Below are positions 5,285 to 20,396 of a DNA stretch of 64,000 bases, piece after piece. This stretch comes from Sphingobium yanoikuyae. Lineage in GTDB: Bacteria > Pseudomonadota > Alphaproteobacteria > Sphingomonadales > Sphingomonadaceae. Every line of letters begins with the position of its first letter. The first letter of the stretch is position 1. Made by a program: the position numbers and the translations under genes. Location of the stretch: NCBI RefSeq assembly GCF_034424525.1, contig NZ_CP139979.1, positions 3,373,001-3,437,000 of the forward strand, written 5' to 3'. The notes beneath the pieces were generated by a model that was given only the letters and a program-made list of their open reading frames with translations, did no database searches and was not told the origin of the DNA.

Positions 5285-5387
5285 AGCAAATTCCGATCCG
5301 ACTGCGTCAGATCGGTTGCTCTAAGTTTTTGGTTTAACGCGTTTTCCGAGGCATCAGGTAATTCCACCTGATTAGAAAACGCTCTAA
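5283..5387. repeat. Intergenic palindromic element serving as convergent gene boundary
   Basis: The whole gap between two convergent genes is one nested palindromic element. The first half has AGAGCAA (5283-5289) pairing with TTGCTCT (5316-5322) and inner CCGATC/GATCGG. The second half has GCGTTTTC (5339-5346) pairing with GAAAACGC (5375-5382) and inner TCAGGT/ACCTGA (5354-5359, 5366-5371). This bipartite form resembles the dispersed intergenic repeats (RIME-like) seen in alphaproteobacteria. It can fold in RNA read from either strand and probably acts as a bidirectional terminator. Confidence 0.7.
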
Positions 5388-6715
5388 ACCGGCAGCTCGA
5401 CCTGCGCGCGCAGCCCGCCATCGGGGGTGCGCGCCAGCGACACCCGGCCCTGATGCGCCTGCGCCGCCGATTGGACGATCGACAGCCCCAGACCCACGCC
5501 GCCGGTGCTGCGGTTGCGGGAGGGTTCGCCGCGATAGAAGGGCTCGAAGGCGCGGGCGATATCGGCCTGCTCCATGCCCGGCCCGTCATCCTCGATCGTG
5601 ACGATCGCCCGCCCCTCGTCGCGCATCACCCGCACCCGCGCGCGGTCGCCATATTTGATCGCATTGTCGATCAGGTTGGTGAACAGCCGCTTGAGCAGGA
5701 TCATGTCACCCGCGATGATGACAGGCTCCGCGCCCGTCAGGGTCACGTCGCGGCCCATGTCGGCGAAATCGTCGACCAGCCCCTCGACCAGCAGGCCAAG
5801 GTCGAGCGGTTCCTTGAGGCGGGGGCGATTTTCATTGTCGACGAAATCCAGCGTCGTGCCGATCAGCGCCTCCATCTGGCGGATTTCCTCCTCGGCTGCG
5901 ATCCGCACCGGCGCGGGCGCGGCGGTGAGGTGGAAATGGAGGCGCGACAGCGGCGTGCGTAGATCATGGGCGATCGCGCCGACGACCGAGGTGCGTTCGC
6001 GCACATAGCGGGCGATGCGCGCCTGCATTTCGTTGATCGATTGCGCCGCCAGCCGGATCTCGCTCGGCCCGTCGAGCGGGATCGGCTGTTCCTCCTGCCC
6101 TGCCCCCATCCGCTCGGCCGAGGCCGCGAAGGCGCGGATCGGGCGGGTCAGCCGCGCGCTGAACCAGAGGCTGAGCGGCACCACCAGCAGGATGCCGACG
6201 AGGAAGGCATATTGGCCGAGCAGCCGCCAGAGCGACCGCCCGCCCCGCGCTTCCCGCGTGATCATCCGCCACTGACCGTCGGGCTGGCGGATCGCGGCGG
6301 TGAAGGTGCCCAGGATGAAGGGATCAGCAACGCCATCGGGGCCGTAGAGCTGCATCTCCTCGACGAACTGCCCGATCCGCTCGCGATCGCCGGGGTCGAG
6401 GCGGATGCGCACATCGGCGGCTGGCAGGGCAAGGCGCCGGGCCAGCAGCGCGGCGATCAGCCGATCGGCCGGGTCGGTCGATGCCGGCGGCGCGGCCGCC
6501 TGGCGCACCTCATGCACCACCGGCTCGTCGCGCAGCAGGGGCTGGCCATGGACGATGCGGGCAATCTCATAGACCGACAGCGGCACCCGTTCGGGCGGAA
6601 TGAAATAGAGCAGCAAGGTGAGGCTGAAGGCGGTCAGCGTCAGGATCACGACCAGGGCCAGCGCCAGCAGATGGGCGTGGATCGAATTGGCCCAGCGCAG
6701 GAAGCCCGCCTTCAT
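5384..6715 (-). CDS. Two-component sensor histidine kinase (HAMP, EnvZ/OmpR class)
   Basis: A 443-residue inner-membrane sensor kinase. Transmembrane helix 1 lies at about residues 15-40 (LALALVVILTLTAFSLTLLL), a periplasmic sensor region follows to about 165, then helix 2 (YAFLVGILLVVPLSLWFSA), a HAMP linker, the H-box AIAHDLRTPLSRLHF with the phosphorylated His, the N-box LFTNLIDNAIKYGD, G1 EDDGPGM and G2 GVGLGLSIV. Its start overlaps the response-regulator stop by four bases (ATGA), so the pair is co-translated. The pair is divergent from the HiPIP/cytochrome/DUF1592/DUF1552 operon, which is its most likely target. The stimulus is not evident from sequence. Confidence 0.93.
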   Translation of the reverse strand: MKAGFLRWANSIHAHLLALALVVILTLTAFSLTLLLYFIPPERVPLSVYEIARIVHGQPLLRDEPVVHEVRQAAAPPASTDPADRLIAALLARRLALPAADVRIRLDPGDRERIGQFVEEMQLYGPDGVADPFILGTFTAAIRQPDGQWRMITREARGGRSLWRLLGQYAFLVGILLVVPLSLWFSARLTRPIRAFAASAERMGAGQEEQPIPLDGPSEIRLAAQSINEMQARIARYVRERTSVVGAIAHDLRTPLSRLHFHLTAAPAPVRIAAEEEIRQMEALIGTTLDFVDNENRPRLKEPLDLGLLVEGLVDDFADMGRDVTLTGAEPVIIAGDMILLKRLFTNLIDNAIKYGDRARVRVMRDEGRAIVTIEDDGPGMEQADIARAFEPFYRGEPSRNRSTGGVGLGLSIVQSAAQAHQGRVSLARTPDGGLRAQVELPV

Positions 6716-7458
6716 CCGCGCTGCACCGGCGCCTGGAAGATATAGCCTTCGGACCGGACGGTGTGGATCAGCTCACCGCGCGCGCGGGTGCCGAGCTTGC
6801 GGCGCAAGCGGCTGACCTGGGTGTCTATCGCCCGGTCGAACACATCGGCATCCTCGCCGCGCGCCAGTTCGACCAGCGCGTCGCGGTTCAATATCTGCTG
6901 GGGATGCTCGATGAAGGCGAGCAGCAGGGCGAACTCCCCCTCCGACAGGCTGATGATGATGCCGGCCGGATCGCGCAGCACCCGGCGCACCGGATCGAGC
7001 TGCCACCCTTCGAAATGATAATGGGCCAGCACCGGCTGGCGGGTGTCGGCGACCGGGCGACGGCGGCGCTGCAGCGCACGGATGCGGGCGAGCAGTTCGC
7101 GCGGCGACAGCGGCTTGGGCAGATAGTCGTCGGCGCCCATTTCCAGGCCGGTGATCCGGTCCCCTTCCGTCCCCAGCGCCGACACCATGATGATGCCGGC
7201 ATCCTGCTGCCCCGCGAGCGAGCGGGCGATCGACAGCCCGTCCTCGCCCGGCATCATGACGTCAAGGACGATGATATCGACCGGCTGATGGGCAAGGATG
7301 GCGCGCATCGCCGGGCCATCGGCCGCTTCGCTGACGACATAGCCTTCCTGCATCAGGAAGGCGCGGACCAGCGCGCGCAGCGACGGATCGTCATCGACGA
7401 TCAGGATATGCGTGTCGCCCGGCGCGCTGTCGCCTGTCAGCTTCGCTGTCACCCTCAT
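6712..7458 (-). CDS. OmpR-family two-component response regulator
   Basis: About 248 residues. The N-terminal receiver begins HILIVDDDPSLRALVRAFL, with the phospho-acceptor Asp in IIVLDVMMPGEDG and Lys in LPKPLSPRELLARI. The C-terminal winged-helix DNA-binding domain includes SEGEFALLLAFIEHPQQ and DTQVSRLRRKLG. The ATG at 7458 is closely preceded by GAGGAGGG; a GTG six bases further in (7452) has AGGAGG at seven bases and is an equally good start. A longer reading frame upstream is not family-like. It is co-transcribed with the kinase. Its probable binding sites are the TTTGTC-N6-GACAAA repeats in the divergent promoter region. Confidence 0.93.
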   Translation of the reverse strand: MRVTAKLTGDSAPGDTHILIVDDDPSLRALVRAFLMQEGYVVSEAADGPAMRAILAHQPVDIIVLDVMMPGEDGLSIARSLAGQQDAGIIMVSALGTEGDRITGLEMGADDYLPKPLSPRELLARIRALQRRRRPVADTRQPVLAHYHFEGWQLDPVRRVLRDPAGIIISLSEGEFALLLAFIEHPQQILNRDALVELARGEDADVFDRAIDTQVSRLRRKLGTRARGELIHTVRSEGYIFQAPVQRG

Positions 7459-7506
7459 CCCTCCTCTTCCCATTCCGCCCCTTCTAGCCGCCGGCCCGCG
7501 CCGGAT

Positions 7507-7526
7507 TTTGTCAGGCCCGACACAAA
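7507..7526. promoter_or_regulatory. Candidate response-regulator operator, copy 1 (imperfect)
   Basis: TTTGTC at 7507-7512, six-base spacer, then GACACAAA at 7519-7526. It is an imperfect version of the perfect palindrome 52 bases downstream (about five helical turns). It lies between the divergent response-regulator gene and the HiPIP operon. Confidence 0.45.
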
Positions 7527-7558
7527 GGACGGAATAAGCGCCTGCATTCTGCGCCGAT

Positions 7559-7576
7559 TTTGTCGGCGCTGACAAA
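7559..7576. promoter_or_regulatory. Candidate response-regulator operator, copy 2 (perfect 6-6-6 palindrome)
   Basis: TTTGTC (7559-7564), GGCGCT, GACAAA (7571-7576). Perfect inverted repeat about 80 bases upstream of the HiPIP start and about 100 bases upstream of the response-regulator start. The paired copies suggest cooperative binding. The assignment to the adjacent regulator is inference. Confidence 0.5.
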
Positions 7577-7656
7577 TTAATCCGCCGCCCCCCTGCTAGA
7601 AGGATCGCACAAGAGGACCGGAGCAACCGGGCCGGCAGGGAAGAGGAGTGGGCCGC

Positions 7657-7965
7657 ATGGCGGCAAGCCATCATCATGTCCGTCACTGGAGCCGTCGATC
7701 GGCATTGGGCCTGATCGCCTGCGTGCCGCTGGGGCTGGCGAGCATGGCCAATGCCGCCGAGTGCATCGATCCGGCCAGCCTGTCCGCCGCGCAGAAGAGC
7801 ATGCGCAAGTCGCTGGGCTTTCGCACGTCGAGCGATGCGACCAAGCGCTGCGGCCTGTGCGCCTTCTTCACCGCCGCCCAGCCGGGCTGCGGCAAATGCG
7901 CGCTGCTGAGCGGCGGCATCGTGCCGGCCGAAGGCGTGTGCGACAGCTGGGCGAAGAAGAGCTGA
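7657..7965 (+). CDS. High-potential iron-sulfur protein (HiPIP), Tat-exported
   Basis: A 102-residue periplasmic electron carrier. The N-terminus SRRSALGLIACVPLGLASMANAA is a twin-arginine signal, as expected for a protein that folds with its [4Fe-4S] cluster before export. The mature part has the HiPIP cysteine pattern: CGLCAFF, then GCGKCALLSGG, then GVCDSWA at the C-terminus. An additional Cys pair (AEC and QPGC) is present and not all can be cluster ligands. The ATG at 7657 is preceded by AGAGGAG at eight bases. It is the first gene of a tightly packed seven-gene operon and overlaps the cytochrome b gene by one base. It likely shuttles electrons between the membrane cytochrome b and the exported redox proteins downstream. 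Confidence 0.85.
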   Translation: MAASHHHVRHWSRRSALGLIACVPLGLASMANAAECIDPASLSAAQKSMRKSLGFRTSSDATKRCGLCAFFTAAQPGCGKCALLSGGIVPAEGVCDSWAKKS

Positions 7966-8621
7966 TGGAGAACCCCGCGCGCCAATATGTCTGGGATTTG
8001 CCCATCCGCCTGTTTCACTGGGCGCTGGTCGGCCTGATCGGCTTTTCCTGGTGGAGCGCGGAAACCTATCACATGGACTGGCATCGCCTGTCAGGTCAGG
8101 CCGTGCTGTTCCTGATCGTTTTTCGCCTGATCTGGGGCCTGATCGGGTCCGGGCCAGCGCACTTTGCCCAGTTCCTGCGCGGGCCGCGGGCGATCTTCGC
8201 CTATCTGACCGGCCGCGCGCCTGCGACGCCGGGCCATAATCCGCTGGGCGGCTGGAGCGTGGTGGCGATGCTGCTGGCGCTGTCGGTCCAAGTCGGCACC
8301 GGCCTGTTCGCGGTCGATATCGACGGCATCGAATCCGGGCCGCTGTCGCATCTGGTCGATTTCGATCAGGGCCGGCTCGCCTCCGACATCCACGGCATCA
8401 GCTTCACCATCCTGCAGGTGCTGATCGGCCTGCATGTCCTGGCGGTGCTGTTCTACCTGCTGGTGCGGCGGCGCAACCTGATCGGACCGATGGTCAGCGG
8501 CCGGGCGAAAGTGAGCGGCGAGCCGGTGGCGGTGCGGCGCGCGTCGCCTGTCGCCTTCGCTGTCGCCATCCTGCTGGCGGGCACGCTCGCCTGGTGGGTC
8601 TTTGCCGATCCGATGCTGTGA
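7965..8621 (+). CDS. Cytochrome b561-type di-heme membrane protein
   Basis: A 218-residue integral membrane protein. Four helices are visible, for example LFHWALVGLIGFSWWSA, LSGQAVLFLIVFRLIWGLI, VVAMLLALSVQVGTGLFAV and ILQVLIGLHVLAVLFYLLV. Candidate heme-ligand histidines sit in RLFHW, MDWHRLSG, DIHGISF and GLHVLAV. The opening VWDLPIRLFHWAL is typical of the prokaryotic cytochrome b561/Ni-hydrogenase cytochrome b family. It would link the quinone pool or an inner-membrane donor to periplasmic carriers. Its ATG overlaps the HiPIP stop (TGATG). A further C-terminal helix (FAVAILLAGTLAWWVF) is an extra anchor. Confidence 0.88.
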   Translation: MENPARQYVWDLPIRLFHWALVGLIGFSWWSAETYHMDWHRLSGQAVLFLIVFRLIWGLIGSGPAHFAQFLRGPRAIFAYLTGRAPATPGHNPLGGWSVVAMLLALSVQVGTGLFAVDIDGIESGPLSHLVDFDQGRLASDIHGISFTILQVLIGLHVLAVLFYLLVRRRNLIGPMVSGRAKVSGEPVAVRRASPVAFAVAILLAGTLAWWVFADPML

Positions 8622-8641
8622 CAGACATGAAAGGGACGAGG

Positions 8642-9112
8642 ATGAGGATACACGATACAGCCCGGATGAAGCGGCCGGCCGCCATGCTGGCACTGCTCTG
8701 CGCGGCGCCGCTGGCGGCGGCGCCCGGCGATATCGTCGCCACCCGGATCGCGGGTTTCCGCGAGGTCGGCGCGGCGTTCAAGAATATCAATGACGAGCTG
8801 AAATCGGCCACGCCGCAAACCTATGTGATACAGATTTCGGCGCGGCAGATCCGCGATTATGCCCGCCAGCAGCAGGGCTGGTTCCCGGCCGGCAGCGGCC
8901 CGAAACCGGGCGTCAAGACGGCGGCCAAGCCGGAAATCTGGAGCCAGCCGGCCGCATTCAAGGCGGCGCAGGACGGCTTCACCGCGCAGGCCAGCAGCTT
9001 CGCCACCGTGGCGGCGAGCGGCGACGTGGCGAAGATGCGCGCCGCGGCCAAGACGCTGGGGCAAAGCTGTGGCACCTGCCACCGCAGCTTCCGCGTCGAG
9101 GAGAAGCGCTGA
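8642..9112 (+). CDS. Periplasmic cytochrome c' / c556 family protein
   Basis: About 156 residues with a Sec signal (MLALLCAAPLAAA) and a single c-type heme motif close to the C-terminus (SCGTCHRSFRVEE), the arrangement of cytochrome c' four-helix bundles. The ATG at 8642 follows GGGACGAGG; ATGs at 8627 and 8666 are possible alternatives. It lies 20 bases after the cytochrome b gene and overlaps the next gene by one base. In this operon it probably accepts or donates electrons together with the HiPIP. Cytochromes c' can also bind NO or other small gases, so a sensing or protective role is possible. Confidence 0.87.
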   Translation: MRIHDTARMKRPAAMLALLCAAPLAAAPGDIVATRIAGFREVGAAFKNINDELKSATPQTYVIQISARQIRDYARQQQGWFPAGSGPKPGVKTAAKPEIWSQPAAFKAAQDGFTAQASSFATVAASGDVAKMRAAAKTLGQSCGTCHRSFRVEEKR

Positions 9113-9903
9113 TGTGGCGCCGGGCGGCCGCGATCCTGTGGCTGGCGCAGCCCGAAGCGCTCTGGGCGCAGGCCGCCGACCTGCCGCCCGAGGCCGCAAG
9201 CGGCGAGCCGCTGCCGGCCGGTGTCAGCATCCGCAAGGTCGGTGCGCAGAGCGTCTATGTCGATGCCCATGGCCGCACCCTCTATGGCATGGATATGCGC
9301 GCCGTGACCGGGCGGACCGGGCACCAGCCGCTCTGGTGTTCGGGTGATTGCCTGACGCGATGGACGCCGCTGGCCGCGCCGGCCAAGGCGGAGATCATGC
9401 CCGCACCGCCCGAGTTCGGCGGCGATCGCAAGGCGCCCCGGCTGAAGCAGGATGGCCCCGACTGGATCGTGATGCAGGGACCGAGCGGGCCGCAATGGGT
9501 CTATAAGCGGGTCAATCTGGTCTTCACCCGTGCCGGCGAGCGGCCCGGCACGATCGGGCATGAGGGCGAGGACGCTCTGGTCTGGAACAGCCTCAAATAT
9601 GTGCCGGCCGCGCCCAAGATCGACGCGCCGGCCGATGTGACGGCGCGGCTGGTGGACGGGCGCTATCTGCTGGTCGATGGCCAGGGCAATTTGCTGGTAA
9701 CGCATAAAGGCAAGGCCTGTGGCACGGCCTGCGCCGACTGGCGCGTCTTCCCGGCGGGCATGGCGCGACGGGGCATGGGCGCCTGGACCGTGCGGCCCGA
9801 TGGCGACCGCGCCCAATGGGCCTATCGCGACCGGCCGGTCTTCACCATCGCGGGCGACGACCCGGCGGACATTCCCGCCGAGGCCGAACCGCTGATCCCA
9901 TGA
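9112..9903 (+). CDS. Exported COG4315-type repeat protein (Yx[FWY]xxD family)
   Basis: 263 residues with a short Sec signal ending WAQA. It resembles the 'secreted repeat of unknown function / predicted lipoprotein with Yx(FWY)xxD motif' family: VDAHGRTLYGMDMRAVTG followed by WCSGDCLTRWTPLAAPA is one unit, and VDGQGNLLVTHKG with CGTACADWRVFPAG is a second, diverged unit. Each unit has a Cys pair (CSGDC, CGTAC) that could form a disulfide or bind metal or heme. No lipobox is evident here. The start overlaps the cytochrome c' stop by one base and the stop overlaps a possible start of the next gene, so it belongs to the redox operon. Its biochemical role is unknown. Confidence 0.78.
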   Translation: MWRRAAAILWLAQPEALWAQAADLPPEAASGEPLPAGVSIRKVGAQSVYVDAHGRTLYGMDMRAVTGRTGHQPLWCSGDCLTRWTPLAAPAKAEIMPAPPEFGGDRKAPRLKQDGPDWIVMQGPSGPQWVYKRVNLVFTRAGERPGTIGHEGEDALVWNSLKYVPAAPKIDAPADVTARLVDGRYLLVDGQGNLLVTHKGKACGTACADWRVFPAGMARRGMGAWTVRPDGDRAQWAYRDRPVFTIAGDDPADIPAEAEPLIP

Positions 9904-9920
9904 CATTTCGCAAGGAGAAG

Positions 9921-11117
9921 ATGATCGTGCAGAATCATCGCAAACTGATCCTGCTGCTGGGCGCGCTGCCGCTGGCGGCGTCGGTGCCGGCATCGGTGTC
10001 AGCGCAGGGCGATGCCCCCGCGAAACCGGCCGCACCCGCAGCGCTGCCCGCGCCGCCCGCCAATGGCGAGATGGGTTTCGTCGTCAGCCATTTCGCGCCG
10101 GCCATCTATCAGGGGAAGGAGGATTGCCCGCAGGGCCTGGCCGCCACCCTACGCGAAAATTACCTGCAGACCCAGCCGGCGGGCGAGCGGACGCGGCTGC
10201 TGGAAAAGGCGAACGAGAAGGAACTGACCGCGCGCTGGACCGGCTATGCCTTCGGGCCCGACAATCTCAACATCTGCACCCATCCCGACAAGTTCGACCG
10301 GCCGCCCCAGCGCATGGTTCAAGGCAAGGTCGCACAGGGACTGAACCTGGACGATGATGCGGGTGGCGCGGCGGCGGACGACAGCTGCGGCCATGCCAAT
10401 TTTACCGGGCCAGCCGGCGAGCCGGGCGTCGACAACCAGATGTGGCGGGCGATGGGCTGCGTGCGGACCTGGCGCGGGGTCGACGGCATGGGCGGTGATA
10501 TCGTCAAGGGCCTGACCCAGTTTCTGGTCAGCGGCGAACATAGCCAGCTGCTGTTGCTGACCGGCGTCGACAGTCTGGAAAATGATCCCGACGTGACGGT
10601 GATCTACGCCAATACCGAGGATCGGGCGGTGGTGGATTCGCGCCAGAATTTCATCCCCGGCGCCAGCTACAGCGTCACCGCCAATGCCGCCCATCGCAAT
10701 GTGCTGAAAGGGCGGATCGTCAATGGCGTGCTGACCACCGAGCCGGCCCATATCCGCCTGAAGCAGAATTGGGGGCAAGGGTCGGAGCGGGACATTCGCG
10801 GCCGGCGCAACGAATATGATTTCACCAGGGCGCGGCTGCGCTTCACCTTCCAGCAGGACGGATCGATCAAGGGCATCGTCGGCGGCTATCAGCCGATCTG
10901 GAACGTGATGGCCAGCGCCTCGGTCGGTGGCGAGGGCGCGGCGACCACGGCGGGCTATGACTGCGCCGCCATGTATGCCGCGCTCAAAGCCATGGCCGAT
11001 GGCGATCGCGATCCGGCGACCGGCCAGTGCCGCCGCATTTCCAGCGGTATGGAGGCCCGGGCCGTGCCCGCCTTCATCACCGACCGCCTGCCCCAGGCCA
11101 AGGTGGCGCAGCGATGA
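9921..11117 (+). CDS. Exported Cys-rich protein of unknown function, DUF1592/DUF1552-associated
   Basis: I do not recognise a named domain. About 398 residues with a Sec signal (LILLLGALPLAASVPASVSAQ) and a Pro/Ala linker, then scattered cysteines in GKEDCPQGLAA, NLNICTHPD, DDSCGHANF, RAMGCVRTW, AGYDCAAMY and GQCRRIS, consistent with an oxidised exported protein. A Trp-rich stretch QMWRAMGCVRTWRG is notable. The ATG at 9921 closely follows AAGGAG; an ATG at 9900 overlapping the previous stop as ATGA is the alternative. Its stop overlaps the start of the DUF1592 gene by four bases, so the two are made together. Most likely a partner subunit of the DUF1592 and DUF1552 proteins (inference from context). 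Confidence 0.75.
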   Translation: MIVQNHRKLILLLGALPLAASVPASVSAQGDAPAKPAAPAALPAPPANGEMGFVVSHFAPAIYQGKEDCPQGLAATLRENYLQTQPAGERTRLLEKANEKELTARWTGYAFGPDNLNICTHPDKFDRPPQRMVQGKVAQGLNLDDDAGGAAADDSCGHANFTGPAGEPGVDNQMWRAMGCVRTWRGVDGMGGDIVKGLTQFLVSGEHSQLLLLTGVDSLENDPDVTVIYANTEDRAVVDSRQNFIPGASYSVTANAAHRNVLKGRIVNGVLTTEPAHIRLKQNWGQGSERDIRGRRNEYDFTRARLRFTFQQDGSIKGIVGGYQPIWNVMASASVGGEGAATTAGYDCAAMYAALKAMADGDRDPATGQCRRISSGMEARAVPAFITDRLPQAKVAQR

Positions 11118-12832
11118 GCCGGCCGTTTCGCCACAGGGCGCGCTGGGCGTTGTTCGCCGGGCTGATGCTGAGCGCCTGCACGGTCGAAAAGGCGCCGCAG
11201 ACCGCCGCCATGCCCGAGGCCAGCTTCGCACCCTTGAAGACGCCGCTGGGCCAGGTGGCGGGGATGCGCCGCCTGACCGAAGCGCAATATCGCAACAGCA
11301 TCGCCGATATCTTCGGCCCCGACATCAAGGTCGCCGGCCGGTTCGAGCCGATCGTGCGGCCGGTGCATGAGCTGATCGCGACCGGCGCCAGCGCATCGAC
11401 CATCTCGCCCGCCGGGCTGGAGCAGTTCGACGCGATGGCGCGCAACATCGCCGCGCAGGTCTTCGCGCCGGATCGCCGCGCCCAGTTCATGCCCTGCACG
11501 CCGCGCGATGCGGCCGCGCCCGATGCCGATTGCGCCGCGCGGACGCTGATGCCGATCGGTCGCTACCTGTTCCGCCGGCCGATGACGCAGGAGGAGATCG
11601 GCGCCTTCGTCATGATGGCGGGCAAGGGCGCTGGCGATGGTCAGGGCTTCTATGACGGGATGCAGCTGGCGCTCGCCGCCATGCTGGTGTCGCCGCAATT
11701 CCTCTACATCATCGAGAGCGCGGAGCCCGACCCGGAAGCGCCCGGCAGCCTGCGGCTCGACAATCATGCCCGCGCCGCGCGGCTGAGCTATCTGCTGTGG
11801 AATACGACGCCCAATGAGGCGCTGCTGCGCGCGGCCGACGAGGGCAAGCTGACCGATCCGGCTCAGCTCGCGGCGATCGCGCAGAAGATGGTGCGTTCGC
11901 CCCGGCTGGAGGATGGCGTGCGCGCCTTCTTCGCCGACATGCTGTTGTTCGAGAAGTTCGACGAGATGGCCAAGGACCAGATCGTCTATCCCCGCTTCAA
12001 TCCCGATGTCGCGTCCGCCCTGTCCGAACAGATGCTGCGCATGATCGTCGACCAGTTGGTGACGCGGCAGGGCGATTATCGCGACCTGTTCACCACCCGG
12101 CGGACCTTCATCAACCGGGCGCTGGGGCCGCTCTATCAGGCCAAGGTGTCCAGCATGCAGGGCTGGGTGCCCTATGAATTTGCCGATGGCGACGATCGCG
12201 CCGGGCTGCTGGGCCAGGCCGGTTTCCTGGCGCTCTATTCCCATTCGGGGCGCAGTTCGCCCACCCTGCGTGGCCGGGCGATCCGCGAGCTGCTGCTGTG
12301 CCAGCCGGTGCCCAACCCGCCGGGCAACGTCAATTTCACCGCCGTCCAGGATGTCGGCAACAAGGCGATGCCGACCGCGCGCATTCGCCTGAACGCCCAT
12401 AATAGCGATCCGGTCTGTGCCGCCTGCCACAAGATCACCGACCCGCTGGGCCTGCCGCTGGAGCGGTTCGACGGCATCGGCGCCTTCCGCCCGACCGAGA
12501 ATGACGCGCCGATCGATACCGCCGGCGTGTTTGAGGGGACGGCCTTCCAGGGCAATATCGGCCTGGGCCAGGCGCTGGCGGCGAGCAAGTCGACCACCGA
12601 ATGCGTTGCCGGCCGCGCTTTCCAATATGCGACCGGGCGCATGCCGGAGGATGAGGAGGCGACCGCCATCGCGCTGGAACAGGGCTTCGCCGCCGATGGC
12701 TATCGCATCCAGGCGCTGTTCCTGCGGGTCGCGACCATGGCCGATGCCTATCGCGTCAGCACCTTGCCGCTGGCCAAGCCGCAGGTCGCGATGATGACCA
12801 GCCCGCATATCCGAGAAGGAGACCGCCCATGA
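11114..12832 (+). CDS. DUF1592/DUF1588/DUF1585-type exported lipoprotein with CxxCH motif
   Basis: A 572-residue protein with a lipoprotein signal (ALFAGLMLSAC, lipobox LSAC). The order of conserved blocks matches the planctomycete-type cassette: DUF1587-like MRRLTEAQYRNSIADIFG, DUF1595-like LFRRPMTQEEIGAF, DUF1592 region with MLVSPQFLYIIE and RLSYLLWNTTPNE, DUF1588-like RTFINRALGPLY and RGRAIRELLLC, and a C-terminal DUF1585-like block. CAACHKITDPLGLPLERFD contains a CxxCH heme-binding motif, so it is probably a c-type cytochrome. It overlaps both neighbours by four bases (ATGA), making strict stoichiometry with the DUF1552 protein likely. Function is not established for the family; an envelope redox role is inferred from the CxxCH and from the neighbours. 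Confidence 0.88.
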   Translation: MSRPFRHRARWALFAGLMLSACTVEKAPQTAAMPEASFAPLKTPLGQVAGMRRLTEAQYRNSIADIFGPDIKVAGRFEPIVRPVHELIATGASASTISPAGLEQFDAMARNIAAQVFAPDRRAQFMPCTPRDAAAPDADCAARTLMPIGRYLFRRPMTQEEIGAFVMMAGKGAGDGQGFYDGMQLALAAMLVSPQFLYIIESAEPDPEAPGSLRLDNHARAARLSYLLWNTTPNEALLRAADEGKLTDPAQLAAIAQKMVRSPRLEDGVRAFFADMLLFEKFDEMAKDQIVYPRFNPDVASALSEQMLRMIVDQLVTRQGDYRDLFTTRRTFINRALGPLYQAKVSSMQGWVPYEFADGDDRAGLLGQAGFLALYSHSGRSSPTLRGRAIRELLLCQPVPNPPGNVNFTAVQDVGNKAMPTARIRLNAHNSDPVCAACHKITDPLGLPLERFDGIGAFRPTENDAPIDTAGVFEGTAFQGNIGLGQALAASKSTTECVAGRAFQYATGRMPEDEEATAIALEQGFAADGYRIQALFLRVATMADAYRVSTLPLAKPQVAMMTSPHIREGDRP

Positions 12833-14169
12833 GCTTCACCCTCGATCGCCGCACCGCGCTGCGCGGCATGGTCAACGGCATGGCCGTGGCCGTCGGTCTG
12901 CCGCTGCTCGACATCTTCCTCGACGGCAACGGCACCGCCATGGCGGCAACCGGCGCGCCGATGCCGATCCGCTTCGGCACCTGGTTCTGGGGGCTGGGCG
13001 TCAATCCGCCGCGCTGGTTCCCCAGCGCCGCCGGCAAGGATTATGAGCTGAAGGTCGAGCTGGCCTCGATCGAGGCGCTCAAGCACAAGGTCAATATCCT
13101 GGGCGACTTCACCCTGCCGCTCGACGGCAAGCCCAACCTGCCGCACATCACCGGCGGCATCGGTATCCGCACCGGCATGGCGATCGATTCCGACCGGGGC
13201 CTGCCGGGGCCGTCCTTCGACGTGTCGATCGGCGACGTGATCGGCACCCGCACCCGCTTCCGCTCGATCGAACTGTCGGCGACCGGCGATCCGCGCAATT
13301 CGCTGTCCGGGCGCGGCAATGGCAATCTCAACCCGGCGGAAGTGTCGCCCGCAGCCCTTTATACAAGGCTGTTCGGTGCCGGCTTCCATGATCCCAACAG
13401 CGCGACCTTCACCCCCGATCCGGCGGTCATGGCGCGGCGCAGTGTCCTGTCCGGCGTGTCCGACCAGCGCCAGGCGCTGGAGGCGCGGCTGGGCGCGGCC
13501 GACAGGCAGCGGCTCGACCAATATTTCACCTCGCTGCGGCAGCTGGAAAACCAGCTCGACGTGCAGCTGACCAAGCCGGCGCCGATGCAGGCCTGTGTCG
13601 TGCCGCCCAAGGTGCCCGACCTGCCGGTCAATGCCGAGATCGAGAATGTGATGCGCAATCACGAGATCATGACCGACCTGCTGGTAATGGCGATGGCGTG
13701 CGACAATGTCCGCCTGTTCAACATGAACTTCAACAATGGCGCATCGTCGCTGACGCGGGTCGGCAGCACCATCACCCATCATCAGTTGACCCATGAGGAG
13801 GTGCTGGACAACCGGTTGGGCTATCAGCCCGAAGTCACCTTCTATGTCGACAAGTGCATGGAAGCCTGGACCTATTTCATCAAGGCGATGGACGCGGTGA
13901 AGGAAGGCGACCGCACCCTGCTGGATAACAGCCTGGTCTTTGCCCATAGCGAGACCGAGTTCGCCAAATTCCACACCATCGACAATATCCCGATGATGAC
14001 GGCAGGATCGGCCGGCGGGCGCATCCATACCGGCCAATATATCACCGGCGACGGATCGCCGGTCAGCCGGGTCGGCCTGACCCTGCAACAGGCGATGGGC
14101 GTGCCGGTCGACCGTTGGGGCACGGGCAGTCTGGAGACGAACAAGATCATCCCCGGACTGATTGTTTGA
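12829..14169 (+). CDS. DUF1552 family protein, Tat-exported
   Basis: 446 residues. The N-terminus LDRRTALRGMVNGMAVAVGL is a twin-arginine signal, suggesting a folded or cofactor-containing export. Conserved DUF1552 features include RFGTWFWGLGVNPPRWFP, ITGGIGIRTG, GPSFDVSIGDVIG, RRSVLSGV and DNSLVFAHSETEFAKFH. DUF1552 proteins are thought to share the alkaline phosphatase/sulfatase-like fold of DUF1501 proteins and are regularly encoded next to DUF1592 proteins; no activity is proven. It is the last gene of the operon and overlaps DUF1592 by four bases. Its stop is only four bases from the stop of the convergent GH55-like gene, so no terminator fits between them. Confidence 0.88.
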   Translation: MSFTLDRRTALRGMVNGMAVAVGLPLLDIFLDGNGTAMAATGAPMPIRFGTWFWGLGVNPPRWFPSAAGKDYELKVELASIEALKHKVNILGDFTLPLDGKPNLPHITGGIGIRTGMAIDSDRGLPGPSFDVSIGDVIGTRTRFRSIELSATGDPRNSLSGRGNGNLNPAEVSPAALYTRLFGAGFHDPNSATFTPDPAVMARRSVLSGVSDQRQALEARLGAADRQRLDQYFTSLRQLENQLDVQLTKPAPMQACVVPPKVPDLPVNAEIENVMRNHEIMTDLLVMAMACDNVRLFNMNFNNGASSLTRVGSTITHHQLTHEEVLDNRLGYQPEVTFYVDKCMEAWTYFIKAMDAVKEGDRTLLDNSLVFAHSETEFAKFHTIDNIPMMTAGSAGGRIHTGQYITGDGSPVSRVGLTLQQAMGVPVDRWGTGSLETNKIIPGLIV

Positions 14170-14173
14170 TCCC

Positions 14174-17100
14174 CTATTCCACCCGCGCCGCGTAGAGGCC
14201 GTGGTGCGACAGCATGAACAGGGTCTTGCCGTCCGGGGCGCCGAACAGCAGTTGTAGCGGCCGTTCGGGCACGTCGATCCGGCCGATCGGCTTGCCGTCG
14301 GGCGCGTAGACGAAGACCTGACCATTGGCGACATAGACCCGGCCCTGCGCGTCGCTGACCACGCCCTCCCCGCCACGATCGGCGAAGGGCTTGAGGTCGG
14401 TCAGCGTACCGTTGCCCGCGACCAGCGCGCTGTAGGTGCGGTTTTCCGATCCGTTGGTGACATAGATGCGCTGGCCCGGCTTGCCCTGAACGAAGCCATA
14501 GCTGTCGAGCGTGTGGGAGAAGCGCAGGCCGCGATGGTCGACCGGTCCCTGGGCGAAGACGCGCCAGGCCGGCAGGGCGATGCTGCCGTCGGGCGAGACA
14601 TAGGCCTGCGCATTGGACTGGGCGGTATCGCGGGCGAACATGTCGGCAAGCGTGGTGAACTGATAGGTCTTGGGATCGATCTGGTCCCTGAACTCGCCAT
14701 TCACCCACCAGTTGACCGGGAAGATGGTGGCGGCAGCGCCCTGCCCCGCAGCCGTCGCCGGGATGACGCTGACCTGCGTGTCCGGCGCGCCGGGGGTGAC
14801 GCTGTAGACCGTGCCGTTGCGGCCATAGGAGGAGAGGACGAGCAGATTGCCCGACTTGTCGATGGTCAGGTTCACCGGATCGAGCGCGGCGTCGCGGATC
14901 ATCTCCAGCCGGCCCGCGTCGGACCAGCGCCAGATGCGCTGGAAGAAACGGTCGATGAAATAGAGCCGGCCCTGTGCGTCCACCGCGCCGCCGCCCAGAC
15001 CATAGAAACCGTCAGCGAGCTTTTGAACGCTGGCGCCGCCGAAGGTCGAGGGGGCGACCGGATCGGGTTTCGCCGGCACATCCAGTACGGCGAATTCGCG
15101 CTCGCGCACTTCCAGGCCGTGGGTGATGTCCTGAATCGCATTCTCGAACGGATATTTGGTGAGGCGCAGGAAGGTGCCACAGCCATTTTCGTCGCAGGTG
15201 CCGACCCCGCTTTCCGCGTTCACATGGACGTTGCGGAAGCGGATATCGTGCGAATTGTAGAGCGACACGGCGGTCGGCGCAGGCTTGCGCGTGCGGGTGA
15301 CGCGATAACCGTGGAAATTGGCGACCAGGATGTTGCGGGAATCGCGGATTTCGAGCGCGACGGCATCGCCGCTCTCGCCCGCCTCCCCCTCGGTCTGGGG
15401 CGCCAGCAATTCCCAGTTGGCGACGCGGTTGAGGCCGATTTCGGTGCGGACATGATGTTCGACCGAGGCCTGGATCAACCGGCCCGGCGTTTGCGTGTCG
15501 GAGATCAATATGCCCGGATGGCCGAAGGTGCTGGGGCTCCAGATATTGGCGAAGGTGCCCCCGCCGCCCTGCGTCACCCAGAGGCTGGCATATTGGCCAC
15601 CCCAGCGGCGCGATGCGTCGGGATCGGCGGTGGCGTTGTTGTTATAGGGATTGCGCCGGCTGCCATCGAAGGCATCGGTGCCATGGCCGCCCTGGAACTT
15701 GACGTCGTTGACCATGGAACTGGCGCCGGCCTTCCATAGCAAGCCGGTCGCGCGCGGATTGGCGCCATTGGTGTCGAGCGCCAGGCCAGCGACGATCGCG
15801 TCGCCACCCTGCGCGCTTTCAATGAGCGCCTTGGGCGCGCCAACGCCCTGAAAGGCGGGCGTGCCATCGGGCAGGACGATCTGGGTCAGGCTGGGGTGGA
15901 GGCCGATCAGCACCGTATCGGCGCGCAGCCGCAACGTATCGCTGACCTTGTAGAAACCGGCGGGGAGGTAAACGACACGATGGCTGTCGATCGCCTTCTG
16001 CAGTACGGCGGTGTCGTCCGTGACATTGTCGCCCTTCGCCCCCAAGGCGCGGACATTCACCCATTCGGCGACGGGCGGCAGCGGGCGAATGGCAGGCGCG
16101 CCGGGCGCCGGCAGGCTGGCGATCGGCTGCGCCTGCATGTCGGTCTTGTAGTCGCCGATCCGGCCAAGGCCCGGCAGGGTCAGGCCATGGGTGAAGGAGG
16201 AGACCTTGTAGGCATTCCCCTGCCCAGCCACCGTCCGGCCGCTTTCGCGGAAACGGGCGAAGGTCGGGGTGTTGGCGGCCAGCACATTCTGGAAGCCGAC
16301 CTGGGTATAGACATTCTTCTCGTTGGAGATGATGACGCCGGCCTTCGACACATTTTCGAACCGGACATCCTGGCCCCAGAGCCAGTCGCCATAGCCCCGG
16401 TCGATCTCGATCCCGACCGGCACGTTGCGGAAGGCGACATTGAGCAGGGTCAGGCCCGCTTCATGCTCGCGAATGGCGGCGTCGCGCTGTCCCTCGAACG
16501 TCGCGTCGACCAGGGCGAAGGGCCAGGCCGGCGAGGTCTTTTCCGCGAGGATGCCATAGCGGCCGCCCTTGAAGTGCAGATCCTCCGCCTCGTTGGCGAC
16601 ATGGTAAAGGCCGGCGAGGCCCGAACCGATGTCGAAATCGACATGGCTGACGAAACTGTGTTGGGCGGAATGGAAGCGGATCGCGGTCGCCGCCGGATTG
16701 CCGTCCATGATGCTGAAATCGATATTGCCGAGCGCGGAATAGAAGGTGCCCGGATTGGCGTCGGCAATTGCCTTGTCGAATGGCACGCTGCCGGCCGGCG
16801 GGAAGGCGGCGGGCCAGCTTTCCTTGTCGGTCTGGCGCTTGCCGCCGGTGAAGATCAGCATATGGGCGACGCCGCGCTGGAAGCCGGGCGTGTTGGCGCC
16901 GAGCAGGATCACCGGACGCTGGGCGCCAATGCCGAAGATGCGCACGCCCGGCCATAGGAAAAGGGTGCGGCTGATGCGATAGGTGCCCTGGGGCAGGAAG
17001 ACGATGCCGCCGCCGGGCGTCGCGGCGGCGGCGTCGAGCGCCTGCTGGATCGCGGCGCTGTCATCGGCGCGGCCATCGCCCACGCCCTTCACCGTCACGG

Positions 17101-17212
17101 CGCGCGCATCGTCGGGCATGGCGGTATAGACGGACGGGGACGCGAAAGCCGGCTGCGCCGCCGCCAGACATAGCAACACCGACGCACAGGCTCCACTCAA
17201 TCCACGATACAT
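14174..17212 (-). CDS. Exported two-domain beta-helix (GH55-like) protein with C-terminal SMP-30-like domain, paralogue A
   Basis: About 1012 residues with a Sec signal (SVLLCLAAAQPAFA). Two pectate_lyase_3-type right-handed beta-helix starts are visible: VKGVGDGRADDSAAIQQALD at about residue 40 and VRALGAKGDNVTDDTAVLQK at about residue 390. This tandem arrangement is typical of GH55 exo-beta-1,3-glucanases. From about residue 720 the sequence changes to a beta-propeller-like part (GGGAVDAQGRLYFIDRFFQR, DPVNLTIDKSGNLLVLSS, DAQGRVYVANGQVFVY) resembling SMP-30/gluconolactonase proteins. The ATG at 17212 has GGAG at eight bases; an upstream extension is not signal-like. It is 78 bases downstream of a TonB receptor, separated by a hairpin and T-run. 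Polysaccharide hydrolase or lyase function is probable; laminarin as substrate is inference. Confidence 0.8.
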   Translation of the reverse strand: MYRGLSGACASVLLCLAAAQPAFASPSVYTAMPDDARAVTVKGVGDGRADDSAAIQQALDAAAATPGGGIVFLPQGTYRISRTLFLWPGVRIFGIGAQRPVILLGANTPGFQRGVAHMLIFTGGKRQTDKESWPAAFPPAGSVPFDKAIADANPGTFYSALGNIDFSIMDGNPAATAIRFHSAQHSFVSHVDFDIGSGLAGLYHVANEAEDLHFKGGRYGILAEKTSPAWPFALVDATFEGQRDAAIREHEAGLTLLNVAFRNVPVGIEIDRGYGDWLWGQDVRFENVSKAGVIISNEKNVYTQVGFQNVLAANTPTFARFRESGRTVAGQGNAYKVSSFTHGLTLPGLGRIGDYKTDMQAQPIASLPAPGAPAIRPLPPVAEWVNVRALGAKGDNVTDDTAVLQKAIDSHRVVYLPAGFYKVSDTLRLRADTVLIGLHPSLTQIVLPDGTPAFQGVGAPKALIESAQGGDAIVAGLALDTNGANPRATGLLWKAGASSMVNDVKFQGGHGTDAFDGSRRNPYNNNATADPDASRRWGGQYASLWVTQGGGGTFANIWSPSTFGHPGILISDTQTPGRLIQASVEHHVRTEIGLNRVANWELLAPQTEGEAGESGDAVALEIRDSRNILVANFHGYRVTRTRKPAPTAVSLYNSHDIRFRNVHVNAESGVGTCDENGCGTFLRLTKYPFENAIQDITHGLEVREREFAVLDVPAKPDPVAPSTFGGASVQKLADGFYGLGGGAVDAQGRLYFIDRFFQRIWRWSDAGRLEMIRDAALDPVNLTIDKSGNLLVLSSYGRNGTVYSVTPGAPDTQVSVIPATAAGQGAAATIFPVNWWVNGEFRDQIDPKTYQFTTLADMFARDTAQSNAQAYVSPDGSIALPAWRVFAQGPVDHRGLRFSHTLDSYGFVQGKPGQRIYVTNGSENRTYSALVAGNGTLTDLKPFADRGGEGVVSDAQGRVYVANGQVFVYAPDGKPIGRIDVPERPLQLLFGAPDGKTLFMLSHHGLYAARVE

Positions 17213-17225
17213 CAGCCAGGCTCCG

Positions 17226-17261
17226 TAAAAAGAAGATGTCCCGGCCGTGCAGGACCGGGAC
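17226..17261 (-). terminator. Intrinsic terminator or attenuator after the TonB receptor
   Basis: On the minus strand GTCCCGG (17261-17255) pairs with CCGGGAC (17244-17238), followed by ATCTTCTTTTT. The seven-pair GC stem plus T-rich tail fits partial Rho-independent termination between the receptor and the downstream GH55-like gene. Confidence 0.6.
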
Positions 17262-17290
17262 AAGTTTGGGGGGAGAGATGTTATGTTTTA

Positions 17291-20260
17291 TCAGAAATTG
17301 AAGCGGACACCGGCGCGATAGATGCGGCCCAGCGTGTCGTAGAGCGCCGGGTTGATGTCGAGACCGGTGTTGGTCTGGGGCGAGGCGACCGGATCCTTGT
17401 CGAACAGATTGTCGACCTTGCCATAGAGGGACACACGGTCGCTGAACTTGAAGGTGGCGCCGATGTCGACATAGAAGGCCCCCTTCATCTTGTTGTAATC
17501 GATGGTCGGGTGGTTCGCGGTCGAGGCCGGGCAGGACGACTGGCAGACGACATATTGGTTGCCGAACGTGCCGTCGCTGATCCAGCGTTCCTGCACCGTC
17601 AGGCTGAACTTGCCGCTGTCATAGGTCTGCACCGCCAGCCATTTCCAGTCGGGCGTGTTGCCGTTGTTGGCGCCCGCCTGGTCGACCGGATCGACACCGG
17701 CAATGCCGGCGTTGACGATGAACTTGCGGATATGGGTGCCCAGCGCGCGGACGGTGAAGTTGCCCGGCAGGCCCAAGGGCTGCTGCCACTGATAGCTCGC
17801 CTCGATATCGAAGCCGCTGGTCCGCCAGGAGGCAAGGTTGAACGGCTGGACATTGATATAGTTGAGGCTGGGATTGGCATTGTCGAGGCTGAAGCCGCCG
17901 CAGAAGGCCTGATTGCCGTCATAGCAGAACTGGACGATCTGCTGCGCCGACAGGCTGGAGACGACGCCCTTCAGCTTGATGTCATAATAGTCGAACGACA
18001 GGCTGAGGCCCGGTAGCCAGGAGGGACGCGCCAGCACGATGCCGATTTCGGTGTTGCGGGCGATTTCGGGCTTCAGATTGGGGTTGCCGATGGTGTTCTG
18101 GAATGCCTGAACCGCTGCGCCCTGGAAGGGATCGCTGAAGTTCGGCAGGGTCGTGACGGTCGGCGCGGCGAACAGTTCCGACAGATTGGGCGCCCGGACA
18201 TCGCGCGAGGTGACGGCGCGCAGGCGGATGCCGTCGAGCGGCGTATCCCAGGTGCCGCCGACCTTCCACGCCCAGACCGTGCCCGACGTGCTGTAATGGG
18301 TACCACGGCCCGCGGCGTTCAGATTGGCGCGGCCGACCGCTTCGCTGTCGAACAGCGGCATGTCGATTTCCACGAAGCCTTCATAGACTTCATATTTGCC
18401 GCGACCATTCTTGTAGTTGCCGGCTGCCCAGTTGCTGCCCTGCGCACCGTTGAGCAGCGGGTCGGCCGGATAATCGGCGCTGTTGGGGCTGAGGTCGGAC
18501 ACGCCCGCGCCATAGGGGTCGGCGTTCACGCGATAGAATTCGCGGCGATATTCGGCACCGAAGGCGACCGAGAGCGGGCCTGCCCACAATTCCACCGGAT
18601 TGCCCGAGAAGTTGAGGCTGGCGACGTCCTGGGTCAGCTTGGTGTGCTGGAACGGGCCATTGTCATGCGGCGCGACATAGGCGAGCGCGGCCGCCGAGGG
18701 GGTGAAGCCGCCGAAGATGTTGATCGGCTGGCAACCGAGCGCGCGAGCGGCCGGATCGGCGCAGACGATCGCACCGTTGAGGGTGATCGCATTGGCCGCT
18801 GCGGCATAGCGGTTCTGCAGCACGATATCCTTCACCCGGATGTCCGAGATGGTGATGCCATGCTCATAATAGGCGTCATAGTTCCAGTCGGTGCCGGCCG
18901 CGCCGAACTTGCCCTTGGCGCCGGCGACGAAGCGATATTGCTTGCGATCGGTATAGACCTGCGGATCGGGGAAGGCGGCGTTGGACGAGCCGAAGCCGAA
19001 GGAGGTGATGCCGGCCGTGGCGCACTGGTCGCGCACCGACTGGGGCAGATAGGGGTTGGAGCATTGGACGGTCAGGTTGGCGCGGCCATAGCCGGGGCTG
19101 GGCTGGTTGTTGGTCTTCACCTGCGCGACATTGACCGTGACATAGGCTTCGTTGTTGTCGGCGAAATCATAGCCGATCCGGCCATAGCCGTTGATGCGTT
19201 CCAGCGAGGATTTGAGCGAGGCGCCCGAGCCGGGTGCGCCCGACAGGTCGCCGCCCTCGCAGAAGCTGTTGCCGCGATAGCAGTTGGTGACCGCGCCGGT
19301 GCCGGTCGGCGTGCCGTTCGATCCATAGTTGAACTGATAGGGATTGCCATTCTGGTCGAAGGCGATGCCCTGCAGCGGGCCATTGTTGATCAGGCCGTAG
19401 CGGGCATATTGATAGGGCTGGGCGTAATCGCGGTAATTATATTGTGGCAGGCCGTTGTTGGTCTGGCCGGTGTTCATCAGCGTGGTGGCGCGATACCAGT
19501 TGCGGCTGCCGGCCAGATCGGTGCCGAAGTCGCCGGCACCCACGCCGCCTTCATGGTCATATTCGCCGCTGACCACCAAATGCAGACGATCATCCATGAA
19601 GGATTTGCCATAGGCGGCCTGGACCAGCGCGGTTTCGTCATCGCCATATTTGGTGATGCTGCCAAGGATATTGCCCTTGAAGCCTTCGAAATGGGTGTCG
19701 GTGATGAAATTGACCACGCCGCCGACCGCGTCCGAGCCGTAGGAGGCTGAGGCACCGCCGGTGACGACGTCGACGCGCTTCACCAGCAGCTGCGGGAACA
19801 TCGAGATGTCGGGCACGCCGGTGACATTGGCGCCGACGACGCGCTGGCCGTCGAGCAGGGTCAGGGTGCGGATCGCGCCCAGGCCGCGCAGCGAGAAGGA
19901 GCTGAGGCCCTGCTGGCCGCTGGAGGTGGAGAAGGTGCCGGTGGCGGCGCCGGTCGACCCCTGGAGCGAGGGCAGCTGGGCAATGGTGTTGAAGATGTTG
20001 GGCTGCGCGTTATTGGCGATCTGCTCCTCACCGATGACGGTGGTGGGCGTCGGCGCATTGAAGCCGCTGGTGGTGATGCGCGATCCGGTGACGATGATGT
20101 CGGCGCTCTGTGCGGCCGGCGCATCGCTCGTCTGGGCCTGTGGCACGGGTTCGGCCGCCGGTTCGGTCTGGGCCTGGGCGGTGCCGGCCAGCGCCATGAT
20201 GGCGACGGCGGCCAGGCTGACGCCCGCCATATGCCGATGGATTGCGATCTGCACGTTCAT
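17291..20260 (-). CDS. TonB-dependent outer-membrane receptor (GH55 locus)
   Basis: 989 residues. Sec signal (SLAAVAIMALAGTAQAQ), then the TonB box/plug region (ADIIVTGSRITTSGF), plug motifs (SFSLRGLGAIRTLTLLDGQR, VKRVDVVTGGASASYGSDAV, GGVVNFIT) and a long beta-barrel ending in the aromatic LGRIYRAGVRFNF. SRDVRAPNLSELFAAP and DVTLRAVTSRD-like barrel motifs are typical of the carbohydrate-type TonB receptors abundant in sphingomonads. The ATG at 20260 has AAGAGGA upstream; an in-frame extension of 32 codons is not signal-like. It sits between two GH55-like paralogues and shares an upstream operator with one of them, so it probably imports the oligosaccharides they release. Confidence 0.92.
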   Translation of the reverse strand: MNVQIAIHRHMAGVSLAAVAIMALAGTAQAQTEPAAEPVPQAQTSDAPAAQSADIIVTGSRITTSGFNAPTPTTVIGEEQIANNAQPNIFNTIAQLPSLQGSTGAATGTFSTSSGQQGLSSFSLRGLGAIRTLTLLDGQRVVGANVTGVPDISMFPQLLVKRVDVVTGGASASYGSDAVGGVVNFITDTHFEGFKGNILGSITKYGDDETALVQAAYGKSFMDDRLHLVVSGEYDHEGGVGAGDFGTDLAGSRNWYRATTLMNTGQTNNGLPQYNYRDYAQPYQYARYGLINNGPLQGIAFDQNGNPYQFNYGSNGTPTGTGAVTNCYRGNSFCEGGDLSGAPGSGASLKSSLERINGYGRIGYDFADNNEAYVTVNVAQVKTNNQPSPGYGRANLTVQCSNPYLPQSVRDQCATAGITSFGFGSSNAAFPDPQVYTDRKQYRFVAGAKGKFGAAGTDWNYDAYYEHGITISDIRVKDIVLQNRYAAAANAITLNGAIVCADPAARALGCQPINIFGGFTPSAAALAYVAPHDNGPFQHTKLTQDVASLNFSGNPVELWAGPLSVAFGAEYRREFYRVNADPYGAGVSDLSPNSADYPADPLLNGAQGSNWAAGNYKNGRGKYEVYEGFVEIDMPLFDSEAVGRANLNAAGRGTHYSTSGTVWAWKVGGTWDTPLDGIRLRAVTSRDVRAPNLSELFAAPTVTTLPNFSDPFQGAAVQAFQNTIGNPNLKPEIARNTEIGIVLARPSWLPGLSLSFDYYDIKLKGVVSSLSAQQIVQFCYDGNQAFCGGFSLDNANPSLNYINVQPFNLASWRTSGFDIEASYQWQQPLGLPGNFTVRALGTHIRKFIVNAGIAGVDPVDQAGANNGNTPDWKWLAVQTYDSGKFSLTVQERWISDGTFGNQYVVCQSSCPASTANHPTIDYNKMKGAFYVDIGATFKFSDRVSLYGKVDNLFDKDPVASPQTNTGLDINPALYDTLGRIYRAGVRFNF

Positions 20261-20338
20261 TCCTCTTCCCCTCTTGTCACCAGGCGCCCTCCCGGCGTCG
20301 GCGCGCCCATGGCGGGCTATTGTGTGAGTATTAATCCC

Positions 20339-20374
20339 GAGCGGTCGCCACCGCACTTACGACATAGGTCGTAG
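20339..20374 (-). promoter_or_regulatory. Shared promoter/operator element, copy 1 (TonB receptor)
   Basis: Contains GAGCGGTCGC (20339-20348), a four-base gap, then GCACTTACGAC-ATAG-GTCGTAG (20353-20374), which includes the perfect palindrome TACGAC-ATAG-GTCGTA. It lies about 80-115 bases upstream of the receptor start. The same pair of blocks occurs upstream of GH55-like paralogue B. Confidence 0.65.
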
Positions 20375-20396
20375 GCGGCGGCGAACCGTCGCTTTT

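Follow-up and report, generated by a model that had tools for sequence, protein, structure and literature searches.

A stretch of 64,000 nucleotides from Sphingobium yanoikuyae (contig NZ_CP139979.1, positions 3,373,001 to 3,437,000; hereafter the window) carries a gene cluster in which a two-component regulator diverges from genes for an iron-sulfur protein, two cytochromes, a DUF1592-type heme protein and a DUF1552 protein. The constant core of this cluster is formed by DUF1592, DUF1552 and an exported protein outside known families, here called UNK, and on sequence evidence the DUF1592-DUF1552 pair is common to the cluster and to the Cbp2D/TERTU-like redox proteins of cellulose degraders. 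We consider it somewhat probable that the cluster is a regulated sphingomonad version of the Cbp2D-type envelope redox machinery, independent of lytic polysaccharide monooxygenases (LPMOs), in which the DUF1592 heme and a histidine metal site in DUF1552 would act on a substrate. A previous sequence-only reading of the window had noticed the cluster, whose existence is borne out by open reading frames (ORFs) and Pfam, and had proposed a redox system, a proposal that is partly supported here; the kinship with Cbp2D and TERTU proteins had been missed. The cluster consists of:

5384..6715, minus strand: sensor histidine kinase (HK) with HAMP and HATPase_c domains (Pfam)
6712..7458, minus strand: response regulator (RR) with a Trans_reg_C domain (Pfam)
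7657..7965, plus strand: high-potential iron-sulfur protein (HiPIP) with a twin-arginine N-terminus (PF01355, E 1.2e-6)
7965..8621, plus strand: prokaryotic cytochrome b561, a membrane protein and candidate quinone link (PF01292, E 1.5e-20)
8627..9112, plus strand: cytochrome c' (CGTCH), exported by inspection (PF01322, E 3.6e-25)
9112..9903, plus strand: COG4315/Lipoprotein_15 (LP15)-like exported protein (PF03640 at E 0.067 only, below the cut-off)
9921..11117, plus strand: UNK, exported, constant partner of the window's DUF1552 class
11114..12832, plus strand: DUF1592-type monoheme protein with a lipobox and the CxxCH motif CAACH (PSD3-PSD5-PSD4/DUF1592-PSCyt3/DUF1588-PSD2)
12829..14169, plus strand: DUF1552 protein with a twin-arginine N-terminus and a predicted alkaline-phosphatase-superfamily fold (PF07586, E 9.3e-49)

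The seven plus-strand genes span 7657-14169 with overlaps, or gaps of at most 17 bases, and the HK/RR pair is divergent. The DUF1592 and DUF1552 genes overlap by 4 bases, 5 bases separate the b561 gene from the c' start at 8627, and the COG4315-like gene lies 17 bases before UNK if the latter starts at 9921, or overlaps it by 4 bases with a start at 9900; the 20-base gap reported in the sequence-only reading is corrected accordingly, as is its range of 6712..14169, outside which the HK gene falls. Export was called by inspection of N-termini alone (no signal predictor), which are Tat-like on HiPIP and DUF1552 and Sec-like on c', the COG4315-like protein and UNK, with the lipobox LSAC on the DUF1592 protein. 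The HiPIP scores 29.1 bits against a PF01355 cut-off of 22 and on inspection shows at least four cysteines within the match, while cytochrome c' scores 89.7 bits with PF01322 and has its CGTCH at the C-terminus. LP15-type proteins of two related loci (L034, L035) pass the PF03640 cut-off, unlike the COG4315-like protein of the window, to which a protein in L029 is 44.6% identical.

DUF1552 is rare in Sphingomonadales, occurring in 23 of 396 evenly drawn genomes. Comparison of 24 of the 26 DUF1552 stretches in this sample (the window genome's own stretch and a weak one of 21.5 bits being set aside) defines two classes by BLAST identity to the window protein, a nearer one of 9 loci and the window itself (44-74%) and a more remote one of 15 loci (23-28%). 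A UNK profile search of the 396 genomes matched exactly the eight genomes with a first-class DUF1552, partially in G298. A second UNK copy in G001 (C111:15645-16532) lies on a contig where no DUF1552 was matched, so the gene can stand apart from the pair. By BLAST, HiPIP lies near five of the ten first-class loci (window, L029, L032, L034, L035), c' and b561 near three (window, L031, L035) and the COG4315 type near two (window, L029); all seven genes are in reach in the window only, L027 and L032 being short contigs.

A wider contig scan found at least 596 stretches and at least 518 relatives, of which the best 80 were kept, yielding 79 loci that represent the closest relatives only. They come from Sphingomonadales, Caulobacteraceae, Rhodospirillales, gammaproteobacteria (for example Parahaliea, Halioglobus and Zhongshania), Myxococcota and others, with many metagenome bins. 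Counting stop-to-stop ORFs within 6.5 kb of DUF1552, DUF1592 is present in all 79 loci and UNK in 77 (the two without it, L054 and L077, are truncated contigs), followed by LP15/COG4315 (43), c' (34), HiPIP (27) and b561 (24), with all seven genes in 14. The full set is found in 12 of the 22 loci that reach 69% identity, versus one of the 29 more remote ones with complete flanks, where HiPIP, b561, c' and LP15/COG4315 occur in 3, 7, 10 and 10, respectively; c', b561 or HiPIP, singly or together, accompany the core in 28 of the 47 loci whose 6.5-kb flanks are complete. Eight of the 22 close loci carry the HK/RR pair, again divergent (HK 63-98% and RR 68-99.6% identical), the closest named one being Sphingobium scionense DSM 19371 (L036; DUF1552 100%, HK 98%, RR 99.6%), and in L042 a different HK/RR pair (31-34% identity) stands on the other side. 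In a tree of 130 DUF1552 proteins, used for this branch only since several CBM-fused rows have long branches, the window class is set off with 100% support. The core UNK-DUF1592-DUF1552 is thus constant, and HiPIP, c', b561 and LP15/COG4315 form a recurrent but optional set. The single system with its own two-component regulator that had been proposed from the sequence holds among close relatives in this form, and not as a fixed unit of seven genes.

The second sphingomonad class shares with the window the DUF1592-DUF1552 pair, c' and b561, but it has two CxxCH motifs in DUF1592, an HHxLSHH-type motif, an ankyrin protein instead of UNK (L012-L018, L020, L021, and also L122 and L140) and no HiPIP match. 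Cytochromes c' and b561 both recur after the ankyrin protein in nine of the ten loci L012-L021, and in L122 and L140, which identifies them as shared partners of the pair rather than a local accident. Acetyl-CoA-carboxylase-like genes lie on one side of the ankyrin-type cluster in L012 and L014-L018, and in most of these purine permease, amidohydrolase, nucleoside permease and TonB genes lie on the other. Next to the ankyrin and DUF1552 genes, L022 encodes at 6962-7828 a PSCyt1 protein with a weak, below-cut-off DUF2231 match, which may provide a further heme link at the membrane; a gene of this family is also present in L023.

Of the 133 DUF1552 ORFs in the loci analyzed, 129 have DUF1592 as their immediate upstream gene (123 initially, and 6 more when over-extended starts and a short ORF were allowed for). 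One gene intervenes in L022 and L023, a glyoxalase-type one, and L026 has the reverse order, with two ORFs of a broken gene. The conservation of the CxxCH motif in DUF1592, on which the sequence-only reading had made its case depend, was found in 24 of 24 proteins and then in 131 of 132; the outer-surface placement argued from the lipobox does not generalize, as a crude lipobox motif is present in 39 of 95 proteins of the window class. For DUF1552, the phosphatase/sulfatase-like fold suggested earlier is supported by fold comparison, in which Foldseek assigns the predicted structure to the alkaline phosphatase superfamily, with phosphatases, NPPs and sulfatases as top matches. That superfamily is defined by a Ser, Thr or formylglycine nucleophile and an Asp/His two-metal site. 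Across 130 DUF1552 sequences, the columns conserved at 90% or more include four near-invariant histidines (H106, H318, H322, H382) and a single Ser/Thr/Cys position, Thr column 294 (119/130), a position occupied by Val in the window protein; strand 1 does not end in an Asp. UNK has no Pfam match at E 1 and no NCBIfam match at E 0.01, and its predicted structure is a beta-barrel domain with helices. In searches of PDB sequences, no match to DUF1552, DUF1592 or UNK fell below E 0.15.

Across the phylum DUF1592 is rare (6 of 349 genomes), with DUF1552 adjacent in all six, the window included, and in three of them the DUF1592 module forms the C-terminus of proteins of 1590-2157 amino acids. Searches around two of the sampled genomes found it in 76 of 144 genomes of family f62 (around G576), with up to 29 matches per genome, and in 4 of 101 genomes of family f53 (around G491); both families are called Cellvibrio/Teredinibacter-like from domain architecture and protein lengths only. 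G870, G874, G875 and G877 of f62 have 24 to 29 matches each. DUF1552 is the next gene in 18 of 19 chosen f62 loci, the remaining one, L134, ending at a contig edge. A Pfam scan of 13 DUF1592 proteins, one each from 10 of these 19 loci (leaving out the second of L123) and three others, gave the following architectures:

CBM2+YceI+cytochrome+DUF1592: L123, L124, L125
YceI+cytochrome+DUF1592: L137
CBM26+GSDH+cytochrome+DUF1592: L117, L121
CBM2+GSDH+cytochrome+DUF1592: L128
CBM10+SGL(PF08450)+GSDH+CBM2+cytochrome+DUF1592: L127
two cytochromes+Cip1-like+DUF1592: L126
cytochrome+DUF1592: L136
DUF1592 alone, without CxxCH: L130
Ig- or PKD-type repeats+DUF1592: L115, L116

In L125 a 357-residue CBM2+YceI protein, a 1125-residue Cbp2D-like protein and a 400-residue DUF1552 protein follow one another, 23 and 49 bases apart; Cbp2E and Cbp2D have 350 and 1,122 residues (PMC12542752). 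Cbp2D is described as comprising CBM2, X158/YceI, FN3, an X183 cytochrome and X132 with CxxCH, with Pfam DUF1587 noted (PMC8981238). From this Pfam note and the architectures of L123-L125 we conclude that X132 corresponds, as far as domain architecture can tell, to the DUF1592 module; its usual neighbor, by the gene order given above, is DUF1552. X183 and X132 are also carried by TERTU_3803 and TERTU_2913, in a study that describes X132 as without structurally or functionally characterized homologues and its own results as apparently inconsistent with donation to LPMOs (PMC10916295), and a table on lignocellulose communities lists a Cellvibrio 'DUF1592 domain-containing protein' with CBM2 (PMC6004670). 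That PSCyt3 genes in Verrucomicrobia usually adjoin an unknown gene family is already in print (PMC5615132). In the open-access literature, subscription papers such as the 2014 cbp2D report lying outside the search, no paper linking DUF1552 to Cbp2D or X132 was found; the available parts of the Cbp2D papers do not mention DUF1552, and 'DUF' is absent from the main text of PMC12542752. Within that literature, the Cbp2D link of the DUF1592-DUF1552 adjacency and the DUF1552 features appear to be new.

AA10 LPMOs (PF03067) were found in none of the eight UNK-bearing genomes versus three of three Cbp2D-type genomes, other LPMO families not being searched, so the pair must serve some use other than feeding AA10. 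A direct action of Cbp2D/E on cellulose, as proposed earlier (PMC12542752), fits with this, and DUF1552 is a candidate catalyst for it. For the electron route and its direction, the metal site, catalysis by DUF1552 and the substrate, we infer a scheme in which the DUF1592 (X132) heme protein, the Tat-exported DUF1552 and the class-specific, exported beta-barrel UNK would form the core. Cytochrome b561 would connect this core with the quinone pool, c' and HiPIP would serve the DUF1592 heme as periplasmic electron shuttles in one direction or the other, and this heme would exchange electrons with the putative histidine metal site of DUF1552. The reaction catalyzed there would convert an organic substrate located outside the cell or in the periplasm, most likely a carbohydrate or some other bulky compound. 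Electrons would flow inward if DUF1552 is a substrate-oxidizing dehydrogenase and outward if it activates oxygen or peroxide. The YceI and GSDH domains of the Cbp2D-like and GSDH-fused proteins are plausible electron sources, and flow towards DUF1552 is mildly favored on that account; YceI is reported to bind ubiquinone-8 in a relative (PMC8981238). A bolder version, tentative and in our estimate possible rather than probable, would make DUF1552 the catalytic subunit of a widespread, undescribed group of heme-fed oxidative enzymes, in which a phosphatase site has turned into a four-histidine redox-metal site served via the DUF1592 heme. The 'novel mechanism' that has been sought behind Cbp2D/E would then lie in DUF1552, served by interchangeable electron inputs (YceI-quinone, PQQ-type dehydrogenase or b561-c'-HiPIP); the operon of Sphingobium would represent a stand-alone, LPMO-free form under its own two-component control.

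Several observations weigh against this interpretation. Nineteen of the 47 full-flank loci lack c', b561 and HiPIP nearby and 12 have UNK, DUF1592 and DUF1552 alone, which means that genes for the electron input are often missing from the vicinity. The L130 DUF1592 protein (8337-9998) lacks CxxCH with all PSD/PSCyt3 domains present and DUF1552 still following it; H382 is replaced by Glu in L115 and L137; and the Foldseek superpositions of DUF1552 are poor, the best match having a TM score of 0.37 and a root-mean-square deviation of 18.8. The evidence for a DUF1552 neighbor comes from Cbp2D-like loci, the Cellvibrio japonicus genome itself lying outside the analysis, and the literature search turned up no biochemistry for any DUF1552. 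Finally, the neighboring genes hold no conserved hint of a substrate, the set at 14174-23420 recurring only in L036 among the 79 loci.

Among the alternatives, it is highly improbable, and already disfavored, that the redox genes are unrelated neighbors by accident. Their low counts in the more distant full-flank loci are what this idea would predict, but all seven genes recur in over half of the close loci, c' and b561 return beside the second DUF1552 class, and the 5.53-Mb window genome has a single Pfam match each for PF01322 (c'), PF01355 (HiPIP) and PF07586 (DUF1552), all inside 6.5 kb here. By rough arithmetic, a random single gene would land within 6.5 kb of DUF1552 with a chance of about 0.24%, and c' and HiPIP would both do so with about 5e-6 if positions are taken as independent; because these are the genome's sole matches, the clustering is not background.

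That DUF1552 is a plain hydrolase (a phosphatase, sulfatase or phosphonate/lipid hydrolase) freeing or trimming a substrate whose product the heme proteins oxidize would suit its predicted fold and best structural matches; we hold this to be unlikely, given the lack of a conserved nucleophile in the window protein and of the strand-1 Asp, the four conserved histidines, and a nearly invariable DUF1592 gene upstream, which would be odd for a free-standing hydrolase. Alternatively, the pair might only relay electrons, with DUF1552 as a structural dock or DUF1592 maturation factor and the real enzyme elsewhere, be it a dehydrogenase or, in Cellvibrio, an LPMO. Slow reduction of LPMOs by CjX183 of Cbp2D (PMC8981238) and GSDH-type domains fused in 4 of the 13 scanned DUF1592 proteins are in keeping with such a relay. 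The absence of AA10 from UNK-bearing genomes, the near-invariant DUF1552 histidines and the report that deletion of cbp2D or cbp2E is worse than that of lpmo10B (PMC12542752) argue otherwise, and we regard a pure relay as rather unlikely.

The neighborhood was also considered for substrate candidates. At 14174-23420 (minus strand), two pectate-lyase-fold proteins with C-terminal SGL-like regions flank a TonB-dependent receptor; a pectin role was rejected as part of the system in view of the single recurrence of this set. Near some of the 79 loci lie TonB receptors, SDRs, VOC/glyoxalase-like proteins, GH106, P450 and PQQ-type dehydrogenases. TonB receptors and SDRs are very common in sphingomonads, and for that reason were not counted as evidence. 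A VOC/glyoxalase-like protein with a signal-like N-terminus (L048, 11287-11829) occurs in 16 other loci (17 BLAST matches including the query), often just after DUF1552; no such gene was seen in the window cluster. UNK was considered as a YceI analogue, an attractive idea from gene order, as a YceI protein precedes the DUF1592 protein in L123, L125 and L137, but one that fold comparison does not support, with nothing at E 0.001 or below and YceI not among the matches listed. A steroid or bile-acid role is a possible reading, prompted by the two copies in Novosphingobium sp. Chol11 (L090, L094); the available part of the Chol11 paper contains no 'DUF' term (PMC12882949).

Cbp2D/E are reported to be indispensable when Cellvibrio japonicus grows on insoluble cellulose, and an activity beyond LPMO reduction has been proposed for them, not identified (PMC12542752). 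Our analysis names DUF1552 as a candidate for their missing partner, with residues to mutate, and provides in the LPMO-free operon a setting where the DUF1592-DUF1552 pair can be tested. It also offers a first hypothesis for the PSCyt3/PSD proteins of Verrucomicrobia, which are described as frequent and of unknown function (PMC5615132). The latter have the same Pfam domains and a fixed unknown neighbor gene, but in the available part of that paper they are not tied to HiPIP, b561, c' or UNK. The Teredinibacter turnerae proteins TERTU_2913 and TERTU_3803, both with X183/X132 heme modules, are resembled by L126 and L127, respectively (X122 being undetected in L127), two loci of one genome with DUF1552 following in each, and differ from the window protein in being large multidomain extracellular proteins. 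Cbp2D itself differs through its fused CBM2, YceI, FN3 and X183 cytochrome and its LPMO-bearing host, whereas the window DUF1592 protein has PSD/PSCyt3 domains only and its genome no AA10 LPMO. Cbp2D/Cbp2E and the window system are alike in an exported X132/DUF1592 module with CxxCH and an additional cytochrome, and in the Cbp2D-like loci L123-L125, as in the window, DUF1552 comes directly after it.

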